From: Streptomyces sp. NBC_01707
Lineage (GTDB): Bacteria; Actinomycetota; Actinomycetes; Streptomycetales; Streptomycetaceae
Direction of reading: 5' to 3'
Length of the DNA stretch: 64,000 bases
Assembly: GCF_041438805.1 (NCBI RefSeq)
Contig: NZ_CP109190.1
Location: forward strand, 8,866,001 to 8,930,000
Shown: in pieces, positions 1 to 60,071 of the stretch
Layout of the letters: the number at the start of each line of letters is the position of its first letter
Position numbering within the stretch: position 1 is the stretch's first letter
Notes under the pieces: model-generated
Database searches by the model: none
Seen by the model: the letters and a program-made list of their open reading frames with translations, nothing else
What the model was told of the DNA's origin: nothing
Translations under genes and position numbers: made by a program

Positions 1-879
1 GGGGTGTCCGGTGATCAGCTCCACGTCGTCGGTGGCTCGGTCGTACCTGTTCGCGGCGTGCAGGCGCGCCATCGTGGAGAGGTGATCGCGAATGTGATCA
101 GGCAGGCCCAGAGGCGTGAGCCTGGTGCGTACCCATTCCTCGTGGGGTACGTCGGCGTAGGTGATGTCTCTGCCCAATGCGTCGGTGAGTTCTTCCGCGA
201 TGGCTGCCATGTCGCGGGAGCGCTCTCCGGTCAGGCCGTAGGTGCGGCCCACGTGTGCGTCCGGCGAGGCGAGGATGGTGGCCGCCACCTCGGCGACGTC
301 CTGGATGGCGACCGGGGAGGTACGGCCCGATCCGAAGGGAAGCCGGATGGTGTCGTCCTGCGCGACGTCGGCGGCCATGGCCATCAGGAAGATCGGGTTC
401 TCCATGAACACCGTGGGCCTGATGTGGGTCACCGGGAGTCCGGACCAGTCGAGGGTCTGTTCGGCGAGCCAGTGCTGACGCTGTTGCCTGGATTCGCTGG
501 TGCTGGCCAGTGTCATCTGGGAGACCGTCAGCTGGGACATGTTGACGAAGATCTCGAGACGCCCCTGGTCCAGGGCGGCCACCGCCGCGGTCACAGTCGC
601 CTCCAGATAGTAGGAGGAGACGGTCAGCCCGAAGTACATCCGGCGACAGCCGTCGAGCGCCCGGACGACGTCGGCCGCCCGTGTCAGATCGCCCACGGCG
701 ACGTCCGCCCCCAGGTCGCGGAGCTCGGCGGCGCGCTCGTCGTCCCGGTGCACGAATGCGCGAACCGGCAGGCCGTCGCCGCGTAGGCGTTCCACCACCC
801 TCCGGCCGACGTCGCCGGCGGCGCCTGTCACGAGGGTCAGGGCGGTTTCGGGTGAGGGGATCGAGGGTCGGTGCACCAT
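1..879 (-). CDS. NmrA/SDR-like NAD(P)-binding oxidoreductase (3' end outside window)
   Basis: Reading the minus strand from the ATG at 879 gives 293 codons with no stop before the window edge, so the C-terminus is missing. The N-terminus has a Rossmann dinucleotide motif (TLVTGAAGDVGRRV) with the TGxxGxxG pattern of atypical short-chain dehydrogenases, then the GADVAVGDLTRAADV stretch usual in NmrA/NAD(P)H-quinone-oxidoreductase-like proteins and an HIRPTVFMEN segment. The catalytic Tyr-x3-Lys of classical SDRs is not seen, which fits the NmrA class (redox sensor or quinone reductase). An AGGA sequence about 9 nt upstream supports the start. It is divergent from the MFS gene at 1077, and such pairs often share a regulator. 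The substrate cannot be told. Confidence 0.8.
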   Translation of the reverse strand, partial: MVHRPSIPSPETALTLVTGAAGDVGRRVVERLRGDGLPVRAFVHRDDERAAELRDLGADVAVGDLTRAADVVRALDGCRRMYFGLTVSSYYLEATVTAAVAALDQGRLEIFVNMSQLTVSQMTLASTSESRQQRQHWLAEQTLDWSGLPVTHIRPTVFMENPIFLMAMAADVAQDDTIRLPFGSGRTSPVAIQDVAEVAATILASPDAHVGRTYGLTGERSRDMAAIAEELTDALGRDITYADVPHEEWVRTRLTPLGLPDHIRDHLSTMARLHAANRYDRATDDVELITGHP

Positions 880-3841: not shown

Positions 3842-4543
3842 TCAGTGGTTCCCGTCGGCGTAGGGGGAGTGAGGACGGGCCTCGGTGGCGATGACGGCCG
3901 CCTGGATGCGGCGTTCTACACCCAGCTTGGCGAGCAGCCGCGAAATGTGGTTCTTCACGGTCTTTTCCGAGAGGAAGAGCCGCTTGCCGATTTGGCGGTT
4001 GGTCAACCCCTCGCCGATCAGGTCCAGGATCTCGCGCTCGCGCGGGGACAGCCCCGAAAGGGCGTCGTCCGCAGCACAGGCAGGGGTGTCGTCGTGCCGG
4101 AGCGTCCTCATCAAACGTGTGGTGGTGGCGGGATCGAGCATGGACTGGCCCGATGCGACGGCCCGGACCGCCGAGACGAGGTCCGATCCCTTGATCTGCT
4201 TCAGCACGTATCCCGCGGCGCCGGCCATGATCGCGTCCAGCAGTGCGTCGTCGTCGTCGAACGAGGTGAGCATCAGACAGGCCAGGCCGGGCATGCGGGA
4301 TCGCAGTTCGCGGCAGACGGTGATGCCGTCGCCGTCCGGCAGACGTACGTCCAGGACTGCTACATCCGGTCGTAGCGCGGGCCCGCGGGCGAGCGCATGG
4401 TCGGCGGTGCCGGCTTCACCGACGACCTCGATGTCCGGCTCGGTGTCGAGCAGGTCGCGCAGGCCCCGGCGTACGACTTCGTGATCGTCGAGCAGGAACA
4501 CCTTGATGGGTGCTGATTCCGAGAACTGGGGTGCGTCATCCAT
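3842..4543 (-). CDS. NarL/FixJ-type response regulator, DevR/OsdR-like
   Basis: 233-residue DNA-binding response regulator. The receiver domain (residues 13-130) has the acidic pair D19/D20, phospho-acceptor D65 ([11 protein letters not shown]) and conserved lysine K115. A LuxR-type helix-turn-helix follows near residues 165-215 ([11 protein letters not shown] to [13 protein letters not shown]). The ATG at 4543 is preceded by AAGGGG. It is very similar along its length to the regulator at 56982-57695, so the two are recent paralogues. DevR of Mycobacterium and OsdR of Streptomyces activate dormancy, redox and USP genes, which is the content of the surrounding DNA. No intact kinase lies next to it; the nearest kinase gene (9805-10418) is internally deleted. 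The flanking intergenic region toward the alcohol dehydrogenase gene carries box-like palindromes. Confidence 0.9.
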
Positions 4544-4770
4544 GATTGCCCCTTGCCCGCTCGTGCGTTCCGGCCCGGTCCTGCCCACATCTTCCGGGTG
4601 GTGCCAGGCCCGGACGGCTCATGGCCGTGTGCCGTGGAGCCTGCGTTCTCCCGACGGGACGGCTGGGTTCCCATTCAACATCGACCATGCCCGGTCCCGC
4701 GTGCGGCGGCCCGGAGCCCTGGTGCTGCGGGCGCAATTCCACTCTCGCTCTCCCGCCGGTTTCTCCGATT

Positions 4771-4805
4771 GGGCCGGTGCACCCGTTCTGGGTACCGACC
4801 GGCCC
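4771..4805. promoter_or_regulatory. Paired DevR/OsdR-like boxes upstream of the alcohol dehydrogenase
   Basis: GGGCCGGTGCACCC at 4771-4784, and GGGCCGGTCGGTAC on the minus strand at 4792-4805, one mismatch from the window consensus GGGCCGnnCGGyCC. The starts are 21 bp apart, two helical turns. They lie 79-113 bp before the dehydrogenase start and about 230-260 bp before the divergent response regulator. Confidence 0.6.
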
Positions 4806-4883
4806 ATGCGTGTCGGCAGTACTTCGGCACAGGATGGCAGTGGAAGGGCGCCACGGAGCAACGCGCACCAGGGAGCGATCGCG

Positions 4884-5951
4884 ATGAAGGCATTCGTTTT
4901 CCACGGGCCGGGCAAGGGTTCCTGGGACGAGGTACCGGACCCGGACATCGAGAACGCGTCGGACGCCATTGTCCGAGTCGGCACGACAACGATCTGCGGC
5001 ACGGATCTGCACATCCTCAAAGGTGACGTGCCCGAGGTGACACCGGGCCGGGTGCTCGGCCACGAGGCCGTCGGGGAAGTAGTGGAGGTGGGCGACGACG
5101 TGCGGACGGTCCGTCCCGGGGACCGGGTACTGGTGTCCTGCATCTCCTCGTGCGGCCGTTGCCGCTTCTGCCGCGAGCGGCGCTACGGACAGTGCCGCGG
5201 CGGCGGCGGATGGGTACTGGGACACCTGATCGACGGCACGCAGGCCGAGTACGTGCGCATCCCGCACACCGACCTGTCGGTGCACCCGCTCCCCGCCGCG
5301 GTGGACGACAAGGACGGTGTGCTGTTCTCCGACATCCTGCCCACCGCCTACGAGGTGGGGGTGCTCAACGGCGGGGTCCGCCCGGGTGACACCGTGGTCA
5401 TCGTCGGCGCAGGCCCGATCGGACTGGCCGCCATCGCCACCGCACGGCTGTACTCCCCCTGGCGGATCATCGTTGTGGACCTGGCCCGGTCCCGGCTGGA
5501 GGCAGCACGGGCGTTCGGGGCGGACGCCGTGGTGAACGCGGGAGAAGATCCTCAGCAACTCGTCGAAGACCTCACCGAAGGCCTCGGGGCCGATGTGGCC
5601 ATCGAAGCGGTCGGCGTACCGGACAGTTTCGAACTGTGCACGAGGGTGGTCCGCCCGGGTGGGCGTGTGGCGAACGTCGGGGTGCACGGCAAGCCGGTAG
5701 ACCTCCACCTGGAGGACCTGTGGATCAAGGGTGTGACGATCACGACGGGGCTCGTGGACACGTACTCCACGCCCGTCCTCCTGCGCCTGCTGACCGCCGG
5801 CCGCCTGTCCACGGGCTCGCTGGTGACGCACCACTTCGACCTCGATCAGATGGAGGAGGCGTACGAAGTGTTTGCAGCCGCAGCCGAGACCGGCGCACTC
5901 AAGGTGGTGCTGGGCGGCGTGCAGCACGACGTCGTCGATGTACCCGCATGA
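4884..5951 (+). CDS. Zinc-dependent alcohol dehydrogenase
   Basis: 355-residue medium-chain dehydrogenase. Structural-zinc loop cysteines are in CISSCGRCRFCRERRYGQC (residues about 90-108). Catalytic-zinc ligands are CGTD near residue 38 and GHEAVGEV near residue 60. The cofactor-binding motif VGAGPIGLAA sits near 175. The start ATG 4884 has AGGGAG 8 nt upstream. The reaction is NAD(P)-dependent alcohol/aldehyde interconversion; the substrate is not evident. The gene is divergent from the response regulator, has paired box-like palindromes in its promoter region, and ends in a strong hairpin. Similar dehydrogenases belong to the OsdR/DevR-controlled set in S. coelicolor, so a redox-balancing role under hypoxia or stress is the best inference. 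Confidence 0.92.
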   Translation: MKAFVFHGPGKGSWDEVPDPDIENASDAIVRVGTTTICGTDLHILKGDVPEVTPGRVLGHEAVGEVVEVGDDVRTVRPGDRVLVSCISSCGRCRFCRERRYGQCRGGGGWVLGHLIDGTQAEYVRIPHTDLSVHPLPAAVDDKDGVLFSDILPTAYEVGVLNGGVRPGDTVVIVGAGPIGLAAIATARLYSPWRIIVVDLARSRLEAARAFGADAVVNAGEDPQQLVEDLTEGLGADVAIEAVGVPDSFELCTRVVRPGGRVANVGVHGKPVDLHLEDLWIKGVTITTGLVDTYSTPVLLRLLTAGRLSTGSLVTHHFDLDQMEEAYEVFAAAAETGALKVVLGGVQHDVVDVPA

Positions 5952-5997
5952 CAGCGTGAAGGACGTCCTCGATCACGGTCGAGGACGTCCTGCTGTC
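5950..5997. terminator. Strong bidirectional hairpin between dehydrogenase and USP genes
   Basis: A perfect 13-bp stem (5960-5972 with 5979-5991, 6-nt loop) is extended by GACAGC (5950-5955) pairing with GCTGTC (5992-5997). It overlaps the dehydrogenase stop codon and is 7 bp from the end of the convergent USP gene, so it should serve both. Confidence 0.85.
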
Positions 5998-6003
5998 GCT
6001 TCG

Positions 6004-6879
6004 TCACTGGGGCTGCGGCACCACCGCGACCGCACAGTGCGCATGGTGGAGTGCCGCGTGCGCCGTACGGCCGATCTGCAGGCCTACGAGCCCGTGCCGC
6101 CGCGGTGCTCCCACGACGAGCAGGTCGGCGGCGGCGGAGCGGTGTACGAGCACCAGATGGGCCGGTCCTTCGACCGTGGAGCGGCGTACGGCGACATCGG
6201 GATGTCTGCCGAGGAACGGTCCGAGGGCCTGATCGAGTTCCGTTTCCGCGCGCATCTCGCGGGAGACACCAGGAGCGCTCGTGTCGCGCAGGAGTCCGGT
6301 GCCCTCGTACCCCGGGCGACGCCAGGAGCGCACGGCGTCGATCTCACTTTTCCGGACGGCGGCCTCCCGGAACGCGAACGCGACGGCAGCCGTTCCCCGT
6401 GCCGGGTCGGCCACACCGAGAAGGATGCGGCCGTGCGCGCCGACGGTTCCCGTGGCGTCGCCACGCACCACGACGACGGGGCAGTGGGCGCGGGCCGCCA
6501 CGGCCAGACTCACCGAGCCCAGCAGGAGCTCCTTGAGCTGGCCGCGGCCCCTTGAGCCCGTGACCAGCATCGTGGCCCTGTGCCCCTCGTCCAGCAACGC
6601 GGTGACCGTGTCCTGGGCCAGCACCTCGGCCGTGACCGTCACCTCGGGGTCACGGACGGCGGCACGCGCGGCCGCATCGGTCACGATGCTGTCCGCCAGC
6701 ACTTGCTCGGAGGGGCGTTCGAGGCTCTGTTGCAGGCTTGCCGCCTCGTAACGCTCCCACCGGGAGACGTACACGAGTCGCAGCGGCAGCCCGTGACGGG
6801 CGGCCTCGTCCGCGGCCCAGTCGACTGCCCGGAGACTGGAATCCGATCCGTCCACGCCCACGACCACGGGCAGCTCCAT
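6004..6879 (-). CDS. Universal stress protein, two UspA domains
   Basis: 291-residue cytoplasmic protein made of two UspA folds (residues 1-145 and 150-290). The first opens with VVVGVDGSDSS and has the ATP-binding signature GSRGRGQ followed by LLGSVS (G-x2-G-x9-G-S/T). The second is more diverged (LLGVADPARG; VVGAPRRHG) and lacks a clean nucleotide motif, so ATP binding probably rests on the first domain. The start ATG 6879 begins the first beta strand; the ribosome-binding site is a weak GGTGGGG. Box-like palindromes at 6956-6990 lie 77-111 bp upstream. Tandem USPs of this kind are typical DevR/OsdR targets and act in dormancy and redox stress. It closely resembles the USP at 57841-58716. 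Confidence 0.9.
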   Translation of the reverse strand: MELPVVVGVDGSDSSLRAVDWAADEAARHGLPLRLVYVSRWERYEAASLQQSLERPSEQVLADSIVTDAAARAAVRDPEVTVTAEVLAQDTVTALLDEGHRATMLVTGSRGRGQLKELLLGSVSLAVAARAHCPVVVVRGDATGTVGAHGRILLGVADPARGTAAVAFAFREAAVRKSEIDAVRSWRRPGYEGTGLLRDTSAPGVSREMRAETELDQALGPFLGRHPDVAVRRSTVEGPAHLVLVHRSAAADLLVVGAPRRHGLVGLQIGRTAHAALHHAHCAVAVVPQPQ

Positions 6880-6955
6880 CGTCCCCACCGCCTTTCTTCC
6901 CGCGGCTGGAAGAACCCCGTGTCGCCACCGTGACATCCGCACGGGATCGGCGGGA

Positions 6956-6990
6956 GGGACGATCGGTCCCCAATGCGGGACGTTCGGCCC
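6956..6990. promoter_or_regulatory. Paired DevR/OsdR-like boxes, divergent USP / cNMP-fold promoter region
   Basis: GGGACGATCGGTCC (6956-6969, with one more C at 6970) and GGGACGTTCGGCCC (6977-6990) are near-perfect palindromes starting 21 bp apart. They have the GGGAC...GTCCC architecture known for DevR sites. Confidence 0.65.
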
Positions 6991-7104
6991 AACGGGAGCG
7001 GCGGCTGCCCGGAGCGGTGGACGCGGCGCCGACGGATTCGTCCGCCCCGCTCGGTGGCGAGCCGGGCTGCCGAGGGCCCGCCAGAGACCACGGGACAGGC
7101 CTTA

Positions 7105-7118
7105 GGGCCGGTCGGCCC
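7105..7118. promoter_or_regulatory. DevR/OsdR-like box
   Basis: GGGCCGGTCGGCCC, a 14-bp palindrome apart from its central two bases, 165 bp upstream of the cNMP-fold gene. The same 14-mer recurs exactly at 10565-10578. Confidence 0.6.
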
Positions 7119-7282
7119 CCGGGCCACCCCGGACAGCCCCTGCCGACCACCGGGAAACCGGTGGAAACTGGTACCAGGTCCGTCGGAGGAGGCGTACGAG
7201 ACGGCACGGGAGCGCAGAGAGATCCATCCGCTTCTCGCCACCTCACCGACGACGAATGCCGCCCTTGTGGAGGAGACCCGAT

Positions 7283-7741
7283 ATGACCTCTCCGACCATG
7301 CGGTCGCTCGGTCCCGAGCACCGCGACCGGCTCATGCACTTCGCCACGGAAGTGTCGTTCCCCGAAGGGACACGCATCTTTGAGGAAGGACAGAGCGCCG
7401 ACCACTTCTGGATCGTGCGGACCGGCACGGTCACTCTCGACTTCTGTGTGCCGGGACGCCCCCCGGCGGTCATCGAGTCCCTCGGTCATGGTGAACTCAT
7501 CGGCTGGTCCTGGTTGTTCAGCCCATATGTGTGGCAGCTGGGAGCAGAGGCGATGACCCTGGTACGCGCGTACGAGCTGGACGCGGCTCAGGTACGCCAG
7601 GAGTGCCAGGCGGATCCCGAGCTGGCCACCGCCGTGGCTCTGTGGGTCGCCCGGGTGGTGGCCCACCGGTTGCAGTCCACCCGGGCCCGGCTGCTCGACC
7701 TGTACGCCCCGCACGGAAGCGGGCTGACCAACAGCACCTGA
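7283..7741 (+). CDS. Cyclic-nucleotide-binding-fold protein without DNA-binding domain
   Basis: 152-residue protein with a Crp/Fnr-type jelly-roll domain across residues 12-130 (FPEGTRIFEEGQSADHFWIV, then ESLGHGELIGWSWLF). The phosphate-binding cassette matches poorly: GELIGWSWL lacks the usual RxA, so real cyclic-nucleotide binding is doubtful. There is no C-terminal winged helix; the protein stops where a Crp homologue would enter its HTH, about 70 residues short. The start ATG 7283 has a strong GGAGGAG. It probably acts as a small sensor or partner protein. Box-like palindromes lie in the shared intergenic region, which ties it to the stress regulon; short proteins of this type occur in the S. 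coelicolor osd region. Confidence 0.8.
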   Translation: MTSPTMRSLGPEHRDRLMHFATEVSFPEGTRIFEEGQSADHFWIVRTGTVTLDFCVPGRPPAVIESLGHGELIGWSWLFSPYVWQLGAEAMTLVRAYELDAAQVRQECQADPELATAVALWVARVVAHRLQSTRARLLDLYAPHGSGLTNST

Positions 7742-7877
7742 GCCGTCGCCCCGCCGAGCGGACCTCCCACCTGGGGTCGAAGCGCGCTGAAGATCGCCCA
7801 CCACAGCCGGTGGCCTCACCGGCTGCGACGAGGCGCGACCGCGGCACCCACGGGGCGCCGGAACGTTCGCGCCCGGA

Positions 7878-8756
7878 TCACGGCGCGGGAACGGTTGCCG
7901 GTCCCGGAACGGTGATGACGGGGCAGTGCGCCCGGTGCAGCAGACCATGAACCACCGAGCCGAGCCGCATGCCGGTGTATCCGCCCTGCCCTCGTCGGCC
8001 GACCACGACGGCCAGGGCGTCCTCGGAGGCGCGGGCAAGCTCTTCCACAGGGTGCCCCCGCGCCACCTCGTGGGTGACGTGCACGTCCGGGTACTCGGCG
8101 GACGGCCCGGCGACCGCTTCGGTGAGCAGCTTGAGCCGCTCCGGCTCCGCCGAAGCCGACTCCCTGAAAGAGATCATGGACGACGGCCGCACCAGCAGGG
8201 CACGGAGTTCGGCGCCACGCAGGGCGGCCTCCTCGAAGGCGAAAGCCACAGCTGCGTCCGACGCCGGGCTGCCGTCGACTCCGACGACCACGTGGGGCGG
8301 CTGCTGGGTGATGTGCTCGGGCTCGCGCACCACGACGACCGGACAGGGCGCCTGCGCACTGACCGGCACGGTCACCGAACCCGCGCTCAGGAATTCCGCG
8401 AGGCGGCCCAGCTCGCGCGTCCCCAGTACGATCATGCGGGCCTGCCGGCTGTGCCGGCAGAGCAGAGGGGCCGGCATTCCGTCCAGCAGCTCGGTGACCA
8501 CCTCGAGGTCCTCGTGCCGTTCGTGGATACGGGCTGCCGCCTGCGCGAGCGAGTCGTCTCCATGGGCGCGCAGGGCCAGATGCTGTGCGGTGCTGTCCAC
8601 ATGGTGGCCGTGGTGGGTCGGAGGGACCGCCAACAGGAGCCGTACGGTCAGTCCTCTGCGGTGGGCCTCGTCGGCCGCCCAGACCAGCGGCAGATGGAAC
8701 GGTCTGTTCAGGTCGACACCGACGAGCACTTCCGAGTGGTCCAGATTGCTGGTCAT
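7878..8756 (-). CDS. Universal stress protein, two UspA domains
   Basis: 292 residues, two UspA domains. The first (residues 8-145) opens with VLVGVDLN and has a degenerate nucleotide loop (GTRELGRLAEFLSAGSVTV). The second (residues 155-285) opens VVVGVDGSPASDAAVAFA and has the better loop (GRRGQGG, then LGSVVHGLL), so ATP binding probably rests on the second domain, the reverse of the USP at 6004. The start ATG overlaps the stop of the upstream USP gene in an ATGA, so the two are translationally coupled and share the promoter beyond 9667. Confidence 0.9.
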   Translation of the reverse strand: MTSNLDHSEVLVGVDLNRPFHLPLVWAADEAHRRGLTVRLLLAVPPTHHGHHVDSTAQHLALRAHGDDSLAQAAARIHERHEDLEVVTELLDGMPAPLLCRHSRQARMIVLGTRELGRLAEFLSAGSVTVPVSAQAPCPVVVVREPEHITQQPPHVVVGVDGSPASDAAVAFAFEEAALRGAELRALLVRPSSMISFRESASAEPERLKLLTEAVAGPSAEYPDVHVTHEVARGHPVEELARASEDALAVVVGRRGQGGYTGMRLGSVVHGLLHRAHCPVITVPGPATVPAP

Positions 8757-9667
8757 GACTTCTCCTGTTCCGGTTCTGCGGCCCCACGGGCACGCGGGAC
8801 GAGCAGGACCGGGCAGTGGGCATGGTGGAGCACGGCATGGGTGACCCGTGCCAGCGACGGCCCGAAGAGGCGGGGACCCCGCCCGCCGGCCATGACCAGC
8901 AGGTCCGCGTCGCGTGATGCCTCGACCAGCACACCGGCCGTCGAGTTGCCCTTCTCCACATCCGTCGTCACGGCCAGGCCGGGGAACTCCTCCCGGATCC
9001 GGTCGGCGACCGTCGAGATCTCGCTGGAGCGCCGATGGGCGATCTCGTCGACGTCATCCATCAGAGGAGTGACGAGGCCTACGTACTGGAATACGTTCCA
9101 GACGCTCAGCATGCGCAGGGAGGCTTTGCGCAGTTCGGCGGCCCGTGCCGCATGGCGGACACATTCCAGGTCCGCTGCGCCGCCCAGGGCGGCCAGTACG
9201 ACACCCGCCCGTGCGCGTTGCCCGTCGTCGCGGACCACGACGACGGGCACCTCGCCCTCCGCTGCCACCTGCAGTCCGACCGAGCCGAGCAGCAATGCGG
9301 AGAACCCGCCCAGTCCGCGGCTGCCGACAACGATGGTGCCATCCGTTCCGGCTGCCGAGCGCAGACCGGCCGCCGGCTTGCTCCGGCTGAGTTCGGTCGT
9401 GACCTCGACACCGGGGTAGTGCCGGGTGACTTCGGCTGCCGCCCTCTCCAGCAGCTCCCGTCCCGCCTTCCCGATCCGGTCCAGTGTCTCGACGGACAGG
9501 TGCGCGGCCCGGTTCTCGGTGTCCGTGCCGTGGACGATACGCAGCGGGCTTTCTCTTCGCGCCGCTTCAGCGGCCGCCCACAGGAGTGCGGAACCGGCAG
9601 CGGCCGAACCATCGGTGCCGACCACGACCACCCCGTGTCGCGGAGGGCCGGAAGCATTGCTCGTCAT
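8753..9667 (-). CDS. Universal stress protein, two UspA domains
   Basis: 304 residues. The first UspA domain (residues 12-150) opens VVVVGTDGSAAAGSALLWA and ends with the loop GSRGLGGFSALLLGSVGLQV, which satisfies G-x2-G-x9-G-S. The second (residues 160-300) has a partial loop (GGRGPRLFGPSLARVTH). Two adjacent ATGs (9670, 9667) follow an AGGAGGA; 9667 gives the better spacing. First gene of a coupled USP pair with the gene at 7878. A pair of box-like palindromes at 9729-9763 lies 62-96 bp upstream, in good promoter position for regulator binding. Confidence 0.9.
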   Translation of the reverse strand: MTSNASGPPRHGVVVVGTDGSAAAGSALLWAAAEAARRESPLRIVHGTDTENRAAHLSVETLDRIGKAGRELLERAAAEVTRHYPGVEVTTELSRSKPAAGLRSAAGTDGTIVVGSRGLGGFSALLLGSVGLQVAAEGEVPVVVVRDDGQRARAGVVLAALGGAADLECVRHAARAAELRKASLRMLSVWNVFQYVGLVTPLMDDVDEIAHRRSSEISTVADRIREEFPGLAVTTDVEKGNSTAGVLVEASRDADLLVMAGGRGPRLFGPSLARVTHAVLHHAHCPVLLVPRARGAAEPEQEKS

Positions 9668-9728
9668 CATTCCTCCTTGCCACGTCGGGGCATCCTTCAC
9701 GTTGCCACCACGGCCTTGCGCCGGACGA

Positions 9729-9763
9729 GGGCCGGAGGGGCCCGCGTGCGGGCCGAAGGTCCC
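9729..9763. promoter_or_regulatory. Paired DevR/OsdR-like boxes upstream of the USP pair
   Basis: GGGCCGGAGGGGCC (9729-9742) and GGGCCGAAGGTCCC (9750-9763) start 21 bp apart, each one base from the window consensus outside the two central positions. Confidence 0.55.
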
Positions 9764-9804
9764 CTGACAGCTGTGCGGCGCGCAGGCAGTACCGGGCGCG
9801 CTGC

Positions 9805-10418
9805 TCAGCCGTCCGTTTCCGTGCCGGACAGAGGCACCCGCCAGACGATCCTGGTTCCTCCCCCGGGCGGGGTGTCCTGACGGAACACACCTCCCAGTGC
9901 GAGGGCTCGCTCTTGCATGTTGTGCAGTCCACTTCGCGCAGCTCCTGGCGGGACGCCCACGCCGTCGTCGGTGACGGTCAGTGTCACCATGCCTGCGGCC
10001 GCCTCGACGTGCACGTCGACGTTGCGAGCGGCGGCATGACGGGCGGTGTTGCTCAGCGCTTCCTCCAGGACCGCGATGAGAGGGCCGGACACCGCTGATG
10101 GCACCTCGGCGTCGATGGAACCGTCCACCCGCAGTGTGGGTCTGAAGCCCAGCGAGGGCGCCGCGGCCTCGATGGCCGCGGTCACCCTCCCAGCGCGCCG
10201 TACCTGGCGTCCACCAGCTCGACGGCAGCCTCCACGATTCCGCGTAGTACCTGGGCCAGGTCCAGTTCCCTCCCGACCGAGAGAACCGCCTCGAGAAGAC
10301 TGTGCAGGCTGTCCCGCGTTCCGCGTACGGCGCTGATGCGGATCTCCAGCTCGCGGAGAAGCTCGTCCAGAGGGAACAGCGCGAGGCCCTCGGCACCCGC
10401 CGCATGCTCTTCGCTCAC
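9805..10418 (-). pseudogene. Sensor histidine kinase remnant with internal deletion (OsdK/DevS-like)
   Basis: Two pieces of one kinase gene in different frames. From the GTG at 10418 the N-terminus reads to a TGA at 10182-10184, ending AAVELVDARYGALGG. It matches residues about 45-76 of the intact kinase at 55248 (IVEAAVVVVDAEYGALG). From about 10187 another frame continues with the HATPase_c end: an N-box EALSNTARHA, D-box TDDGVGVPPG and the terminal GGTRIVWRVPL. Almost all of both GAF domains and the whole phospho-accepting His region are absent, about 370 codons by comparison with the intact paralogue. The piece cannot autophosphorylate. It was probably the partner of the response regulator at 3842. 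The promoter region still carries a box pair (10544-10578). Confidence 0.88.
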
Positions 10419-10543
10419 CGCGACACCATCCCCTCCGGTCCGGTTGGCGCCCACCTCGCACGATAGGGCTCCGGAAGGGATCGGGCCCGCGTCGTCGTGG
10501 CCGTCCGCGGGGCCTGCGGAACACCGTGGCCGGACCCGGGAAT

Positions 10544-10578
10544 GGGCTGAGCGGGGTGTGCACCGGGCCGGTCGGCCC
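10544..10578. promoter_or_regulatory. DevR/OsdR-like box pair, kinase remnant / HTH-PNPOx promoter region
   Basis: A perfect box GGGCCGGTCGGCCC at 10565-10578 is identical to 7105-7118. A degenerate half-conserved copy, GGGCTGAGCGGGGT, lies at 10544-10557, again 21 bp away. Confidence 0.55.
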
Positions 10579-10639
10579 GTGCGGTCTGCGTCGTTCCGGC
10601 ACAGGATTGATGCTGAGGCCGATCTGCGCGAATGCGCGG

Positions 10640-10683
10640 ACAGTGATCGCACCGACCAGCAACAGTGATTGCACCGACCAGCA
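10640..10683 (+). repeat. 22-bp tandem duplication before the HTH-PNPOx gene
   Basis: Two adjacent 22-bp units (10640-10661 and 10662-10683) differ at one base (CAGTGATCGCACC versus CAGTGATTGCACC). They end 16 bp before the start codon, so they lie in the 5' leader or over the promoter. Confidence 0.85.
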
Positions 10684-10699
10684 GAGGGATGTGCGCAGC

Positions 10700-11413
10700 A
10701 TGTCGGAGGAAGAACCCCGGGGCCCCTCGCCCGAGGAACGCGCGACGACGCCGGGTGACGTGGGCAGACGCATTGCGGCACGTCGCGAAGAGCTGGGGCT
10801 GACCAGGCAGGAGGTGGCCGACAGGTCCGGTTCGGCCGCCACCTACATTCAGTACCTCGAGGAACAGCCGGCCATGCCCAGCATGAGTTTCATGCTGCGG
10901 CTGGCCAATGCTCTGGACACGACCGTTTCCGAGCTCACCGGCAGCAGCATGGATCTTCCGCCCGGTACCGGCCGTGCGGGTCGCCACTCGCGACTCATCG
11001 AGCTGAGCGCTGACGAGTGCCGTGCGCTGCTGTCCACCCACGGGGTGGGGCGAATCTCTGTCTCCACGACGGACGGGCCGACCGTTGTCCCGGTGAACTA
11101 CGTGGTCGTCGACAGCCTTCTGGCCTTCCGGACGGCAGCCGGTGCCACGCCTGCCGGCGCGGCGGGCCACGTGGTCGCCTTCGAGGTCGACCACATCGAC
11201 GACGCGCTGAGTCAGGGGTGGAGTGTTCTGGCCATCGGCACGGCGTCGACGGTGGACGACCCGAACGTCGTACAGCACCTGAACGAGGTGGCGTACACGG
11301 CCCCGTGGGCGGACGGACCGCGCGACCTGTGGCTGACCATCGCCCCCACTCGGCTCACCGGTCGGCGCGTCCAGGTATGTCAGAGCCCCACCCCGCCTTC
11401 GCCTTCCGGCTGA
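10700..11413 (+). CDS. XRE-type HTH protein fused to a PNPOx-like flavin-binding domain
   Basis: 237 residues. Residues 12-75 are an XRE/Cro helix-turn-helix (VGRRIAARREELGLTRQEVA, then SAATYIQYLEEQ). Residues 98-225 are a pyridoxamine-5'-phosphate-oxidase-type split barrel (LSTHGVGRISVSTTDGPTVV, PVNYVVVDSLLAFRT, VAFEVDHIDD) that usually binds FMN, F420 or heme. It is probably a redox-responsive DNA-binding protein or reductase. ATG 10700 was chosen because it begins the conserved protein, although its AGAGGGAT lies some distance upstream; GTG 10691 is the alternative. A box pair and a 22-bp tandem repeat precede it, and the kinase remnant is divergent. Confidence 0.85.
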   Translation: MSEEEPRGPSPEERATTPGDVGRRIAARREELGLTRQEVADRSGSAATYIQYLEEQPAMPSMSFMLRLANALDTTVSELTGSSMDLPPGTGRAGRHSRLIELSADECRALLSTHGVGRISVSTTDGPTVVPVNYVVVDSLLAFRTAAGATPAGAAGHVVAFEVDHIDDALSQGWSVLAIGTASTVDDPNVVQHLNEVAYTAPWADGPRDLWLTIAPTRLTGRRVQVCQSPTPPSPSG

Positions 11414-11435
11414 TCCTCGGCGCATGCGGCAGGGA

Positions 11436-11469
11436 GTGGGAGCCGCGCCGCCGTCTGCGCAGCTCCCAC
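11436..11469. terminator. Hairpin between convergent HTH-PNPOx and protease genes
   Basis: GTGGGAGC (11436-11443) pairs with GCTCCCAC (11462-11469), with a possible inner GCGC/GCGC stem. It lies between the two stop codons and can serve both genes. Confidence 0.6.
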
Positions 11470-11477
11470 CCGGCCTG

Positions 11478-14400
11478 CTACTTCCGCACGCCGACCGCGC
11501 GGATGATCTCCTGCTTGACCGAGCCGCCCTTGTCGTCCGAGGCCGAGGACCGCACGGACATGTACTGGGCGTCGTTCGGCACCCGGACCGAGCCGGCCCA
11601 CGTGGCGGACTTGCCGCGCACGCCGTCGAGTTCGACGGACTTCCATGTCGCGCCGTCGTCGAAGGAGACCTCCAGCGTGGAGCCGGTGATCCGCCCGGTG
11701 TCCGGCGCGCCCTTGACGTACTCGGAGAAGATCCCGAGATCCAGCCGCCTCCCGGCCCGCACATCACCGTGCAGGTCGGTGTCGACGTCGAACCCGAGGT
11801 TGAGCATGGGCAGGAACGTCCAGTGGTCGGTCGGTGTGGCGGACGACTTGAAGGTCCACTCGGAGTGGCCCTTCGTGGCGAGCCGCCAGACGTCCGGGTC
11901 CAGGGTGGTGTCCGTGACCACCTTGAAGTCCTGTTCGGTGGGCTTGACGTTCCGGGCGTACGCGCCCGAGCTGGTCTTGCGGTCGACCCGCACCCCGTCC
12001 ACGTACACCTCGGTGAACTGGGTCATCGAGGTCTCGTTCCACACATCGCCGAAGCCGGTGTGGTCCGGTCCCGAGTCACCCCAGCCAGGTGTGTTGAACC
12101 GCAGGTTGTTGCCGAGGCGCTGCTGGCCCCAGCCGAGGCCGGTGCCCAGCCACGGGTGCCAGACCGGCTTGAACCAGTCGGTCGCGGAGCGCGTGCCGCC
12201 GCGGTGGTGCACGACGCCGGTGCGCTGCTCGATGGCGCCCGGGCCGTTCGACATGGAGACGTGCCATCCGTTGTCGGGGCCGGCACTGATGTAGTCGGTG
12301 CGCTCCACGGGGAACTTGATCTTCTCCTGGAAGCCAATGCCGATCGGGAAGGTATCGGTGATCGAGTAGCGGAACTCGCCACCGTCCGCGGCCTTCGTCG
12401 CGTGGAACTTGTTGTCCACGACGGCCAGTTCACTCTTGCCCGGGCGGTACGTCAGGTCGGTGGGGATCGCCCCCGGGTAACCCTTGGTGAGGTCGTACAC
12501 GTACGGCGTGTTCTCGGTGCCGGTCAGTTCGACACTCCGGTGGAGCCGCGCAGTCTCGACGAGCCGCGCTCCGTCCGCCGCGTTCACCGTCGCGATGTAC
12601 AGCGGACGTGTCGCCCCGTCGGCCCCGGAGAACGTGGCCGACAGGCGCCCCGGCGCCTCATCGGTGACGAACAGGGCCTTCGCGCCCGCGTCCTGCGCGT
12701 TCTGAGCCAGCTCGGCGGGGGTGATCGCGGCCGTGCGGCGTACGACGACCGCCTTGCCCGTCACGTCCTTGCCGGCGTAGTCGGCAGTGCTGCCGGTGCC
12801 GGCGTCCACCAGGGACATCCGCTTGCGTCCGGTGAACAGGTCCGATCCGCTCTGGACGACCGCCTCGCCGAGCCGAGTGCCGCCTGCCTCGACATCCAGC
12901 CGCGGCTTGCCGAGCCGCCACACGGTCCGGTACTCGAAGGTGCCCGTGGCGGGTTTGCGGGTCGGCGCCGCGAAGATGCTGTCGTACTTCAGCGGAACCA
13001 GCACGGCTCCGGTGTAGGACGCGCCGTTGGCCGAACGGTTGAACTTCATGTTCAGCTGGCGGGTCTCAGTCCGCTGATCCACCTGAGCCCGGATCTCGCG
13101 CAACGTCCGCCCGTCGAGGGTGACTTCACGGTCGCGGTCCAAGGTGACCTCGGGCTCGGCGAGAAAACCGAGACCCAGCGAGTCCTTGCCCTTGCTGCCG
13201 TGTACGTCGAGGAAGCTGGACAGGGTGTATGTGCCGGGCTGCAGGCGCAGCTGCAGCGTGCCGGAGTCGTTGACCGCGGCAGGGAAGGGATCCGCGCCCT
13301 GAGCCAGCTTCTGCACGGCCAGGTTGGCGGCGGTGGCCGCGCCGTCGCGGTCCTTGACGTGGACGGTGAGGGTGTAGCGCTCCTCCTCCTTGTTCAGACC
13401 GAAGGCCGTGTGCGCGACGACCGTGTCACCGTCCCTGGCGACGATCCGGCCCGATGTGACGCCGACGGCTGCTGCGGTGCCGTCACCGGTGACCGTGGTC
13501 TGCGCGGTGCCGTGCGCGGGCACGGTGAGGGTGGAGTCGGCGAGGGCGACCACACCGGCGGGAGCGCCCTCTGCGGACAGCCCCAGGGTGACCGGCCGGT
13601 CCGAGGAGTTGCTGTACGTCAGCGTCCTGGTGACCGGCTTGTTCCCCTCGTACGGCCAGCTGACGAAGCCCAGGTCTGCGCTGCCGGTCGCGGTGATCTG
13701 CGCGGAGACGGCGGCCGGGACGTCGACGCGGCCCGCGCCCACCTCGTACGACGTGCCGTCGATCTGCTTGGACGTGCTCATCAGGCCGTCCTTGAGCTGC
13801 TGCCCCGTCCAGTCCGGATGCTTCTGGGCGAGCAGCGCCGCCACGCCCGCGACATGCGGGGTCGCCATCGACGTACCGCTCATCGACGTGTACGGGCCGC
13901 TGCCCGTGACGAGTTGAGAGCGGGCCGCGAGGATGTTCACGCCCGGCGCCGACAGGTCGGGCTTGAGCGCGTTGTCGCCGAGGCGCGGACCCTGGCTGGA
14001 GAAGTACGCACGCTTGTCGGCGGAGTCGACCGCGCCGATCGTGAGTGCGGAGTCGGCGGCGCCGGGGGAGCCGATGGTGCCGGGGCCGCCCGCGTTGCCC
14101 GCGGCGATCACGAACAGGGCGCCCGTGTCCTTGGAGAGGGTGTTCACCGCCTGGGCCATCGGGTCGGTGCCGTCGCTGCCCTCCGACGAGCCGAGGCTCA
14201 TCGAGACGATTCTGGCGTGGACGTCCTTGGCCGCCCACTCCATCCCGGCGATGATCTGCGACTCGGTGCCGGACCCCTGGTCGCTGAGGACCTTGCCGAC
14301 GGCGAGCGTGCTGTCCGGCGCGACGCCCTTCTCCTTGCCGTCGGACGCCGCACCGCTGCCGCCGACGGTGGAGGAGACGTGCGTGCCGTGCCCGTTCCGG

Positions 14401-54714: not shown

Positions 54715-55247
54715 CCGCGTGTGACGAGGATCTATGGTTGGCACAAAAGATGGATAGTTGGCACCTCTGGACTGACGGGCGATGGGCCTTGTCTGTCGAC
54801 TTCGCGAGGCCGCTGACCTGATGTTTTGGTAGGTATGTCGAGGTTTGGATGCATCGTGCGTGCGTGTCTCCCGCTCGACGAACGAGCGTACGGGATCACG
54901 TAAGGGGAGGTTCTGATCGCAGGCTGTCATGAGCTGCGCCGCGTAGAGGCTCAGCCGTTGACTCAAGCGGAAGTGTTCGCCTCGGCCGAGATCGGATGCA
55001 AGGAGGCCGGGGCCTCGCTCCGGTCATCGGGCTCGCACACAGTGTCCAGCAACGCGCGGGCGCATGCGGCGGGCTGCCAGCCGCGGCTGGTTCCGATCGA
55101 CGAGAAGCCTGCAGATTCCGTGCACTGCCCCAGGCGCTGCTCGACTGTACGGCTGAGTGGGTTGGAGTCCACCAGGTGCCTCGTCGTGGTCGGTCCTACC
55201 GTGGAGGTGTGGCCCGCCTGGGATGGGTGGGGCAAGGTGGAGGCACC
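54715..55247. other. 530-bp gap upstream of the kinase gene
   Basis: Lower GC than the neighbours. No gene is recognised; frames have poor codon bias. It contains the GTTGGCAC repeat (54737-54764) and marks the start of the second stress island, possibly an insertion boundary. No DevR-like box was seen. Confidence 0.4.
54737..54764. repeat. GTTGGCAC direct repeat, 20 bp apart
   Basis: GTTGGCAC occurs at 54737-54744 and 54757-54764, in an AT-rich patch right after the acyl-CoA dehydrogenase stop. Each copy is preceded by a similar ATGG-containing stretch. Confidence 0.5.
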
Positions 55248-56963
55248 GTGGGCGACAACGGAACTGACCGCTGTGGTGGGGCGCGACGTCGGCTGAGCAC
55301 GTTGCCGGCCGACCTCCAGGGGCGCCTTGATGCCGTGACCCATAGCTCTGCCGGGACGGCCCGGCTACTGGATGCCGTGATGTCGGTGGGAAGGGGACTC
55401 GATCTGCCCCAGGTGTTGCGCCGGATCGTCGAAGCCGCAGTTGTTGTGGTCGATGCCGAGTACGGAGCCCTGGGAGTGGTTGGCGAGGGAACCCGGCTGA
55501 CGCAGTTCCTGCCCGTGGGCGTCACCGTGGAGCAGCGGGAGGCCATCGGCCCGCTGCCAGCGGGGCACGGCCTCCTGGGCGAGCTCATCCGTCATCCTGA
55601 GCCCCTGCGGCTCGCGGAGCTTGCCGAGCATCCGGCGTCGTACGGGTTCCCGCCGAACCACCCCCCGATGCATTCGTTTCTGGGGGTGCCCATCCGGGTT
55701 CGCGACGAAGTGTTCGGCAATCTGTACCTCACTGAAAAACGGGGCGGTCGTGCATTCGACGCAGAGGACGAGACCGTGCTGTCGACGCTGGCCGTGGCGG
55801 CGGGAGTGGCGATCGAGAACGCTCGCCTGTACGCGGAGACGTGCGATCGCCAACGGTGGCAGGAAGCCAATAGTGAGATCGTCGCGGGTCTGCTGAGCGG
55901 GGTGAACGAGGCTCACGTCCTGCAGATGATCGTCGATCGTGCCTCGCATATTCTCTCCGCGGACCTCGGCGTCCTGGCACTCCCCACGGAGGGTAGGAGC
56001 CTCCGGGTGGCACTGGCGTCAGGTGTGGACGCCGAGATTCATCAAGGTCTGGTCCTGCCACGTGAAGGATCGTTCGTCGGCGCGGCTCTCGATGCGGGCG
56101 AGCCGATCACCAGCCGCGATGTCGGGCACGATCCGCGGATCACCGAGGGCCCGCCGAGGTGGGCGGGGCTCGGCCCGGCTGTCGCGGTCCCGATGATTAC
56201 GGGAGAGCGGACCCGTGGGGTGCTGTTGTTGGCCCGCGTACGGGAGCGTCCTGCCTTCACCACGTCGGAAACCTTGCCCCTGCTGACCTTCGCAGGTCAG
56301 GCTGCGCTGGCGATGGAACTCACCGAACGGCGCAAGTCCGCCGAGCAGATCGCTCTGCTGGAGGACCGGGACCGCATCGCCCGGGATCTGCACGACCTGG
56401 CCATTCAGCGGCTGTTCGCCACCGGTATGACCCTGCAGAGCGTGGTGCGGTTCGTGGATCATCCACAGGCGAGCGAGCGGTTGCTGCGCGCGGTGGACGA
56501 TCTGGACGAGACCATCAAGATCATCCGATCCACGATCTTTGGCCTACGTGCACGCGGACCGGGCCGTGCCGACCAGGGGCTGCGAGGCCGGACGGTGGCT
56601 ACGGTGGAACAGGCCGCACGTACCTTGGGCTTTCAACCCTCCCTGCGGATGGGAGGGCTCATTGACACAGATGTGCCGGCAGAGATCGCCGAGCAGGTGA
56701 TCGCCGTTCTGGGGGAGGCGCTGAGCAATGTTGCTCGCCATGCACAGGCCACGTCGGTGGACATCTCGCTCGTGGTGGGTGAGGGGGCGCTGAACCTCGT
56801 CGTGTCCGACAACGGTGTGGGCATGCCCGAGAACGGTGGTTCCCGAAGCGGGCTCGCCAACCTTGCACGGCGTGCCGAGAAGCTCGATGGCGAGATGAGA
56901 GTGGGGGCGTCGGGGAAGGGTGGCACCCAGCTGAACTGGCGGGTGCCACTGCGGCTGCCCTGA
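55248..56963 (+). CDS. Sensor histidine kinase with two GAF domains (OsdK/DevS-like)
   Basis: 571 residues from GTG 55248 (GGAGG 4 nt upstream). The order is GAF-A (residues 45-195), GAF-B (215-355), HisKA_3 with the phospho-accepting His382 (RDRIARDLHDLAIQRLF), and HATPase_c with N-box GEALSNVARHAQ (Asn about 494) and D-box SDNGVGMPENGG. GAF-A contains PPNHPPMHSFLGVPIRVRDE and, 22 residues after the first His, the Tyr of GNLYLTEK. This spacing equals that of heme ligand His149 and distal Tyr171 in M. tuberculosis DevS (from memory), so a gas- or redox-sensing heme is plausible. It lies tail-to-tail with the response regulator at 56982. It is the only intact kinase in the window for two paralogous regulators. 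Confidence 0.92.
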   Translation: MGDNGTDRCGGARRRLSTLPADLQGRLDAVTHSSAGTARLLDAVMSVGRGLDLPQVLRRIVEAAVVVVDAEYGALGVVGEGTRLTQFLPVGVTVEQREAIGPLPAGHGLLGELIRHPEPLRLAELAEHPASYGFPPNHPPMHSFLGVPIRVRDEVFGNLYLTEKRGGRAFDAEDETVLSTLAVAAGVAIENARLYAETCDRQRWQEANSEIVAGLLSGVNEAHVLQMIVDRASHILSADLGVLALPTEGRSLRVALASGVDAEIHQGLVLPREGSFVGAALDAGEPITSRDVGHDPRITEGPPRWAGLGPAVAVPMITGERTRGVLLLARVRERPAFTTSETLPLLTFAGQAALAMELTERRKSAEQIALLEDRDRIARDLHDLAIQRLFATGMTLQSVVRFVDHPQASERLLRAVDDLDETIKIIRSTIFGLRARGPGRADQGLRGRTVATVEQAARTLGFQPSLRMGGLIDTDVPAEIAEQVIAVLGEALSNVARHAQATSVDISLVVGEGALNLVVSDNGVGMPENGGSRSGLANLARRAEKLDGEMRVGASGKGGTQLNWRVPLRLP

Positions 56964-56981: not shown

Positions 56982-57695
56982 TTACGTCTGGTGCTGTCCG
57001 GCTTCAGGCGGCGGGGAAGGTTCCGTGGCGTGCGCAGCGATCACGGCTGCCTGGATGCGGCGCTCGACGCCGAGCTTGGCCAGCAGACGGGAGATATCAT
57101 TCTTGACGGTTTTCTCCGACAGGTAGAGGCGCTTGCCGATCTGGCTGTTTGTCAGCCCTTCGCCGATCAGTTCGAGGACGTCCTTCTCCCGCGGGGATAG
57201 CCCGGACAGCGCGTCGTCCCCCTCGGGTTCAGCGGCGGATTCCTCCTCGCGCAGGCTGCTCATCAGCCGTGCGGTGGTCGTCGGGTCGAGGGTCGAACGC
57301 CCGGATGCCAGTGTGCGGACGGCGGCAACAAGGTCAGAACCCTTGATTACCTTGAGCACGTAGCCTGCCGCGCCAGCCATGATCGCGTCGAGCAGCGCTT
57401 CGTCGTCGTCGAACGAGGTGAGCATCAGACAGGACAGCTCCGGCATCCGAGAGCGCAGTTCCCGGCACACGGCGATACCGTCGCCGTCCGGCAGCCGCAC
57501 ATCGAGAATCGCGACGTCCGGGCGGAGCGCCGGGCCGCGGGCCAGAGCCTGATCGGCTGTGCCGGCGTCGCCGACGACCTTGATGTCAGGTTCCGCGTCA
57601 AGCAGATCCTGCACCCCGCGCCTGACCACCTCGTGATCGTCGAGCAGGAACACGCGGATCGGTCTCTGGGTCGAGAACCCCGTCTCGTCGCTCAT
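56982..57695 (-). CDS. NarL/FixJ-type response regulator, DevR/OsdR-like
   Basis: 237 residues. Receiver with D19/D20, phospho-acceptor D65 ([12 protein letters not shown]) and lysine in [11 protein letters not shown]; LuxR-type HTH at about 168-215 ([40 protein letters not shown]). ATG 57695 with GAGGAGG upstream. Close paralogue of the regulator at 3842-4543; in the recognition helix region the pair differs as VKND versus VKNH. It probably activates the surrounding USP, nitroreductase and CBS genes together with its own promoter, since a box-like palindrome lies at 57772-57785. It is convergent with the kinase gene, 18 bp apart, instead of forming an operon. Confidence 0.92.
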
Positions 57696-57771
57696 GGTGC
57701 CCTCCTCGCCGTCGAGGGTTGCGCAGTCCCGCCCCTCCGTCATAGTGCGTCCGCACAGGAGCTACGCACCA

Positions 57772-57806
57772 GGGCCGAACGGGCCCACGCTCCGGCCGTT
57801 CAGATC
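57772..57806. promoter_or_regulatory. DevR/OsdR-like box upstream of the second response regulator
   Basis: GGGCCGAACGGGCC at 57772-57785 fits the window consensus. A degenerate copy, CGGCCGTTCAGATC, starts 21 bp further on (57793-57806). They lie 77-111 bp before the regulator's start codon. Confidence 0.5.
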
Positions 57807-59779: not shown

Positions 59780-60071
59780 CGCAGGTCTCCCGGAGAGACG
59801 GGAACAGTCGATGGCCTCTTCAGAATGGGGCGGATCGGAGTCCCGTACCAATGGGCCGTTCGTCCCTCGACAGGGCCGGATGGACTCCCCGGCGGGGCCA
59901 CTGGGTGCTCGATTCTCGCGAGGAGGACGGATGGGGACGTGTTGCCGGACATACGGGACAGCGAACGTCCAGACGCTTGCTCGTGCTTGTCGCAGGACGA
60001 CGCCTCACCGGGGCGGCGCCATGGCGCCGGGACCCTTCGGCTCGGTGCCTGCGGGCAAGGCAATCGCCAGC
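59780..60071. other. Nitroreductase promoter region and CBS-BON gene end
   Basis: Holds the DevR-like box. No gene is seen. Confidence 0.4.
59853..59866. promoter_or_regulatory. DevR/OsdR-like box upstream of the nitroreductase
   Basis: GGGCCGTTCGTCCC, 74-87 bp before the nitroreductase start codon. A weaker GGGCCGGATGGACT follows at 59873-59886, 20 bp away. Confidence 0.55.

Follow-up and report, generated by a model that had tools for sequence, protein, structure and literature searches.

Candidate DevR/OsdR-type boxes and a computed two-slot promoter frame in Streptomyces sp. NBC_01707

Stress genes and regulators of two islands

We analysed a stretch of 64,000 nucleotides from Streptomyces sp. 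NBC_01707 (contig NZ_CP109190.1, C1:8866001-8930000; GC 66-71%; genome size 9.9 Mb, three contigs), here called the window, and the 14-bp near-palindromes, or boxes, located in two islands of stress genes. The first island contains a gene for a DevR-like response regulator, a zinc dehydrogenase gene, three universal stress protein (USP) genes, a cNMP-fold gene, a kinase remnant and an HTH-PNPOx gene. The second, at 55-61 kb, encodes a histidine kinase with two GAF domains, another DevR-like regulator, a USP, a nitroreductase-like protein and a CBS/BON protein. This gene set fits the regulons of OsdR and DevR, which include genes for USPs, zinc dehydrogenase, nitroreductase, PNPOx and the regulator itself; genes for PPDK and HSP20, also of the kinds found in these regulons, are located just to the right of the window.

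The best solved relative of both regulators is DevR (3c3w), with E values of 1.3e-77 for copy 1 (3842..4588, minus strand; Pfam domains Response_reg and GerE) and 4.6e-75 for copy 2 (56982..57743, minus strand), the runners-up yielding 1.3e-43 and 1.8e-39, respectively. The two copies are 75% identical over 240 residues. In the alignment to 3c3w, both contain the phospho-acceptor Asp54 and retain an EKTVKN stretch with K179, K182 and N183, which we take to be DNA-contact residues of DevR. Named relatives of the window regulator were mostly from Streptomyces, with some from Actinacidiphila and Kitasatospora. The gene for a DevS/DosT/OsdK-like kinase (54996..56963, plus strand; two GAF domains, HisKA_3 and HATPase_c) is convergent with copy 2. 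Its first GAF domain matched 2vzw, presumably DosT, with an E value of 2.8e-48 and DevS with 9.8e-44, and an HPPM histidine is kept that, by our own counting, would correspond to H149 of DevS, which has a role in haem binding there.

OsdR-type boxes in the window

An earlier note on this DNA had described nine 14-mers close to GGGCCGnnCGGyCC, at 4771, 4792, 6956, 6977, 7105, 9729, 9750, 10544 and 10565, and attributed them to a DevR/OsdR-type regulon. All nine were found at these positions, and the copies at 7105 and 10565 agree in all 14 bases. The motif is the core of the published OsdR consensus AGGGCCGATCGGCCCT, which according to the cited sections of PMC5069765 was derived from 12 Streptomyces species, is backed by electrophoretic mobility shift assays (EMSA) and binds less well after base changes in the site.

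The window was scored with a symmetric matrix built from all 26 S. coelicolor OsdR sites printed in Table 1 of PMC5069765. The eight best positions were 7105 (19.0), 59853 (17.1), 57772 (16.5), 6956 (15.5), 10565 (14.3), 6977 (13.9), 9750 (12.4) and 9729 (11.4), followed by position 315 (11.0). Six of the nine sites described earlier are thus among the top eight, while 4792 is weak (7.4, rank 22) and neither 4771 (0.5, rank 314) nor 10544 (-6.3, rank 2495) qualifies as a box on this scale. The earlier list had missed 57772 and 59853 in the second island, both of which rank among the top three, and also a pair formed by 59853 and 59873. A matrix restricted to the 16 published sites not located in the S. 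coelicolor islands placed 7105, 57772, 59853, 6956, 10565 and 6977 on top, and 9750 and 9729 dropped to ranks 9 and 10, after 315 and 35804. By reading of the open reading frames (ORFs), all eight strong sites are intergenic.

Scores of at least 11 were obtained for 9 sites in the window, compared to 2.0-2.8 in Markov models. Eight of these are located in the two islands (12.6 kb), where 0.48 were expected (Poisson P 5e-8, for island limits set post hoc, once the sites were known), and one is located in the rest of the window, where 2.0 were expected. The island expectation was taken from 13 such sites in 17 random 20-kb stretches (340 kb) of the same genome. The loose consensus with up to two mismatches showed no clear enrichment in the window, with 124 matches versus 102 +/- 14, a count reached by 7 of 100 shuffles. 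Unlike the matrix, it was uninformative.

Box spacing and the position of a -10-like element

Box spacing was analysed in 80 loci around the closest relatives of the window regulator (the best 80 of 580 confirmed), scanned with the matrix of published sites. The strong sites, 216 after removal of redundancy, have 432 flanks, in which second boxes scoring at least 8 were most frequent at 21 bp (17), followed by 22 bp (11), 20 bp (5) and 32 bp (5); the baseline for a single position was 0.24%. Second boxes also had their highest mean scores at distances of 21 and 22 bp. Minor rises were seen at 20 and 29-30 bp, and another at 10 bp, where boxes overlap themselves. Among non-redundant pairs 14-160 bp apart, 43 of 128 were separated by 20-22 bp (11, 18 and 14, respectively), in 31 of the 80 loci, and the background at other distances was 0.59 per bp with a maximum of 4. 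Pooling 40 column-permuted palindromic matrices, each of which identified fewer sites scoring at least 12 (7-105 versus 335 for the real matrix), yielded 12 of 186 pairs at 20-22 bp with alike pairs kept in; 35 of the 40 gave none and the highest count was 7. The 16-site matrix gave 66 pairs at 20-22 bp versus 1.1 per bp elsewhere, in 42 loci and with alike pairs kept in. Since pairs at 20-22 bp far exceed those at other distances, the spacing in the related loci is 21 +/- 1 bp. The two-turn spacing proposed earlier is thus strongly over-represented, but is not exactly 21 bp. A minor excess was also seen at 30-32 bp, about three helical turns (8 of the 128 pairs).

Four pairs at 21 bp had been claimed for the window, of which 6956/6977 and 9729/9750 are good, 4771/4792 is marginal and 10544/10565 did not hold. 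The additional pair 59853/59873 is spaced by 20 bp and has one weak member (17.1 and 7.3). A gapped two-box pattern had 13 matches in the strain's own genome versus 15 in the control, and among the matches listed for a stricter pattern in 150 genomes, simple repeats predominated. No pairs were found in loci L134-L149, which are from other families, are too short (2.5-3.7 kb) and contain regulators that are only possibly of the DevR type. A limited literature search identified no published spacing rule for OsdR boxes. Two sites listed for SCO0517 in Table 1 of PMC5069765 are 20 bp apart (-248 and -268), and the words spacing and tandem are absent from the main text of that paper.

Strong sites in the 80 loci hardly ever fell within homologues of the window genes considered (1 of 235). 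The single annotated downstream neighbour was a regulator gene for 63 sites, a USP gene for 26, a cNMP gene for 15, a dehydrogenase gene for 11 and a nitroreductase gene for 10, and 73 sites had none of the genes used nearby. Boxes with an annotated neighbour on one side only were oriented towards that gene. This left 163 of the 335 sites scoring at least 12, after exclusion of sites that lacked a neighbour, had one on each side, were located at contig ends or were at least 60% alike. A signal that was not sought initially emerged gene-ward of these boxes, namely ANNNT with its A at +31..33 relative to the centre of the box. It was present in 78 of the 163 oriented boxes, compared to a mean of 11 per 3-bp window, a maximum of 20 outside the slots and 12 on the side facing away from the gene. 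A second peak at +53 comprised 33 boxes, 30 of which lacked the element at +31..33. We refer to the two positions as the proximal and the distal slot. No peak was seen for TANNNT near the Streptomyces boxes, and the frame became visible only after the first T had been dropped; in Streptomyces regulator promoters the element is frequently GATGATCG.

Among boxes that are proximal or single, 40 of 52 at regulator genes (2.5 expected) and 38 of 96 at other genes (5.6 expected) had the element at +31..33, and the proximal signal is therefore not restricted to regulator genes. Of 15 distal members of pairs, 11 had ANNNT at +52..54 (0.8 expected). Where the strong box was distal-only by its ANNNT, a proximal neighbour scoring at least 4 was present in 20 of 30 cases, compared to 4 of 163 at a null offset. 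Slot use differed among genes, with proximal versus distal-only counts of 40/0 for regulator, 7/0 for dehydrogenase and 4/16 for USP genes.

A similar frame was seen in a second sample, drawn from 16 genomes of another family in this class, which probably is the Mycobacteriaceae of GTDB. It comprised 20 loci of 20 kb each, around 20 of the best 27 regulator matches listed. With a matrix refined on these loci and alike pairs kept in, 8 of 33 pairs were at 21-23 bp (5 at 22) at the loosest threshold, and 4 of 16 and 1 of 7 at stricter ones. In 104 flanks of these boxes, ANNNT had its maxima at +31 (17) and +32 (10), with a mean of 3.2, while TANNNT reached its maximum at 51-53, with 10 occurrences in total versus a mean of 0.26 for a single position.

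In the window, we tested seven boxes that are either single or gene-proximal, including the weak 4792 and leaving out 10544, 4771 and the distal members. Six of the seven (4792, 6956, 9729, 10565, 57772 and 59853) had a gene-ward ANNNT at +31..33, and 7105 had one at +53. In the opposite direction, the counts were 0 of 7 at +31..33 and 2 of 7 at +52..54, for a chance rate of 6.2% per slot.

Several observations weigh against a general two-slot frame. The gene directions of the window boxes were picked after the sequence had been read, so the fair chance for six of seven is about 2e-5, allowing either direction, rather than 4e-7. Nine boxes scoring at least 10 in the 40 kb to the right of the window had the proximal ANNNT in two cases, the distal one in two and neither in five, one of these five being too near the end of the stretch for testing on one side. 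Most strong boxes in the 80 loci lacked a strong partner at 20-22 bp, and 55 of the 163 oriented boxes matched neither slot. The window at +53 was also raised opposite to the gene (24 versus a mean of 11), perhaps from divergent, unannotated genes, and the distal slot is therefore less secure than the proximal one. Of 15 loci with isolated boxes elsewhere in the genome, 5 scored at least 12, and a proximal-slot ANNNT in either direction accompanied 1 of these 5, as expected by chance.

Applied to the individual promoters, the slot frame gives the following assignments. Upstream of the USP gene at 6004-6879 (minus strand), the box at 6956..6969 occupies the proximal slot (ANNNT at +31) and 6977..6990 the distal slot, 21 bp away; the frame position in other species predicts the -10 element CACGGT at 6927..6932 (minus). 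The strongest box, 7105..7118, is in the distal slot of the cNMP-fold gene (plus strand; start at 7256 or 7283, end at 7741), with ANNNT at +53, a degenerate proximal neighbour at +21 (score -0.6) and a predicted -10 element GAAACT at 7164..7169 (plus). For the USP gene starting near 9670 (minus), the proximal box is 9729..9742 (ANNNT at +32), the distal box 9750..9763 follows at 21 bp, and the predicted -10 element is CAACGT at 9699..9704 (minus). The box at 10565..10578 is in the proximal slot of the HTH-PNPOx gene (10700-11413, plus), with a predicted -10 element CAGGAT at 10602..10607 (plus); its ANNNT at +31 is found only in this direction, and so not towards the kinase remnant. In the scanned ORF of that remnant (9805-10842, minus), HATPase_c was the sole domain recognised, and by our reading a start resembling the DevS/OsdK N-terminus is placed in a different frame.

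The weak box 4792..4805 is in the proximal slot of the zinc dehydrogenase gene (plus; ANNNT at +32), with CAGGAT at 4830..4835 (plus) as predicted -10 element. The near-palindrome at 4771..4784 is located 21 bp from it, and a minus-strand ANNNT at +53 from 4792 is at +32 from 4771. Hence 4771 would occupy the proximal slot of the divergent regulator gene (minus), while 4792 would serve the dehydrogenase gene. In the second island, 57772..57785 is in the proximal slot of the second DevR-like regulator gene (ANNNT at +32), which may be autoregulated through this box; CACTAT at 57742..57747 (minus) is predicted as its -10 element, and the gene probably starts near 57695. The nitroreductase-like gene (minus) has 59853..59866 in the proximal slot (ANNNT at +33), the weaker 59873..59886 in the distal slot 20 bp upstream (score 7.3) and a predicted -10 element CATTCT at 59822..59827 (minus). 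The stress island continues to the right of the window (C1:8930001-8950000) with genes for PPDK, HSP20/alpha-crystallin, a P-type cation ATPase and two USPs, of which the HSP20/alpha-crystallin gene has a box with a score of 17.9 and an ANNNT at +52.

A proposed two-slot promoter

We consider it highly probable that the boxes are sites for a DevR/OsdR-type regulator in activator-dependent promoters with two slots, given the computed identity, location and spacing of the motif and the frame formed by the slots and the -10 element. The earlier interpretation is supported in the main, and its assignment to a DevR/OsdR-type regulon agrees with the motif core, the gene set and the affinity of both regulators to DevR 3c3w.

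Palindromes rich in GC may arise by chance in a genome with 70% GC, and both the lack of clear enrichment of the loose consensus and the 13 boxes scoring at least 11 in 340 kb elsewhere in the genome would suit such an origin. We regard it as extremely improbable, since it accounts neither for eight island sites where 0.48 were expected, nor for the near absence of strong sites from coding homologues in the related loci (1 of 235), nor for the pairs at 20-22 bp and the position of the -10-like element. That the boxes are sites of some other regulator, while the DevR-like proteins act at other places, also appears very unlikely. The binder is assigned indirectly and 13 scored matches to response regulators of the same family were obtained in the genome, but the motif is the EMSA-tested OsdR site (in the cited sections of PMC5069765), the recognition stretch is conserved in both copies, and a regulator gene is the sole annotated neighbour of 63 of the 235 strong sites. 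A role as hairpins, transcription terminators or RNA elements would agree with the palindromic and GC-rich nature of the boxes. It can hardly be correct, because the boxes are located upstream of predicted gene starts, their spacing and -10 frame suit DNA-bound dimers, and a terminator scan of 4500-11500 gave a single candidate (1.3 expected), at 10715-10736, off the boxes.

The DevR/DosR box of M. tuberculosis has a consensus of the GGGAC type, and CRP is unrelated to DevR/OsdR in both protein family and box. The cited parts of PMC3029386 describe tightly packed DosR boxes, with the proximal one over the -35 region and cooperative binding at a secondary site. Table 2 of PMC5360333, as far as cited here, lists seven DosR -10 regions, in five of which (e.g. 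ATGATC, AGTATT and AGGGTT) we counted an ANNNT, with transcription starting about 10-13 bases past the A; elements such as ATGATC and AGTATT are poor -10 sequences. The frame described here agrees with these DosR promoters. The window would resemble the M. tuberculosis regulon in its close-packed boxes, a proximal box over the -35 region, a cooperative secondary site and a poor -10 element (PMC3029386, PMC5360333), while the target list of DevR/DosR is described as only partly common with that of OsdR (PMC5069765). CRP class II promoters, with the activator over the -35 region, are likened to DosR in the cited part of PMC5360333. The closest known system is the OsdR/OsdK regulon of S. coelicolor (SCO0204/SCO0203), which according to the cited sections of PMC5069765 has the same box, clustering in islands and shared kinds of targets (USP, zinc dehydrogenase, nitroreductase, PNPOx, Crp-like and the regulator itself); in these sections, OsdR boxes are given neither a rule for their spacing nor a transcription start or the position of a -10 element. 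The window differs in having two regulator copies and a kinase gene convergent with copy 2. An osdR-osdK operon is described for S. coelicolor in the same source, whereas in the 29 of 80 related loci where a kinase homologue adjoins the regulator, it is on the opposite strand at the 3' side of the regulator in 27.

In the proposed mechanism, one or both regulator copies, probably driven by the GAF kinase (54996-56963), would bind the boxes. If the DosR start, about 10-13 bases after the A, is carried over, the proximal box would be centred at about -43 to -45 and cover the -35 region, the starts in the window being derived from the -10 position alone. The distal box would be located two helical turns (20-22 bp) farther upstream, and the -10 element would be poor, of the form NANNNT without the leading T. 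Phosphorylated dimers could then occupy both slots on one face of the DNA, touch each other and recruit RNA polymerase at low oxygen or related stress. Judged by the -10 position, a proximal box over the -35 region with a second box two turns upstream was found for part of the promoters, in the 80 loci and in the window.

The motif and the regulon were already known, and the two-slot frame for Streptomyces OsdR-type promoters is new as a computed observation. A wider and more doubtful reading is that a single promoter grammar is common to the Mycobacteriaceae-like genomes and Streptomyces, in which the slots are separated by 21 +/- 1 bp, the proximal box is followed by ANNNT at +32 and the -10 element is too poor to act unaided. 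As the strong box is proximal in some promoters and distal in others, slot strength might then set the order and threshold of switching on, possibly as read by the two paralogues. The frame turns a loose motif into a positional rule, consisting of a box, a second box at about 21 bp and a -10 element at +32, which could help to tell working OsdR sites from chance palindromes in GC-rich genomes. It also suggests that the layout of mycobacterial dormancy promoters is common to soil streptomycetes.

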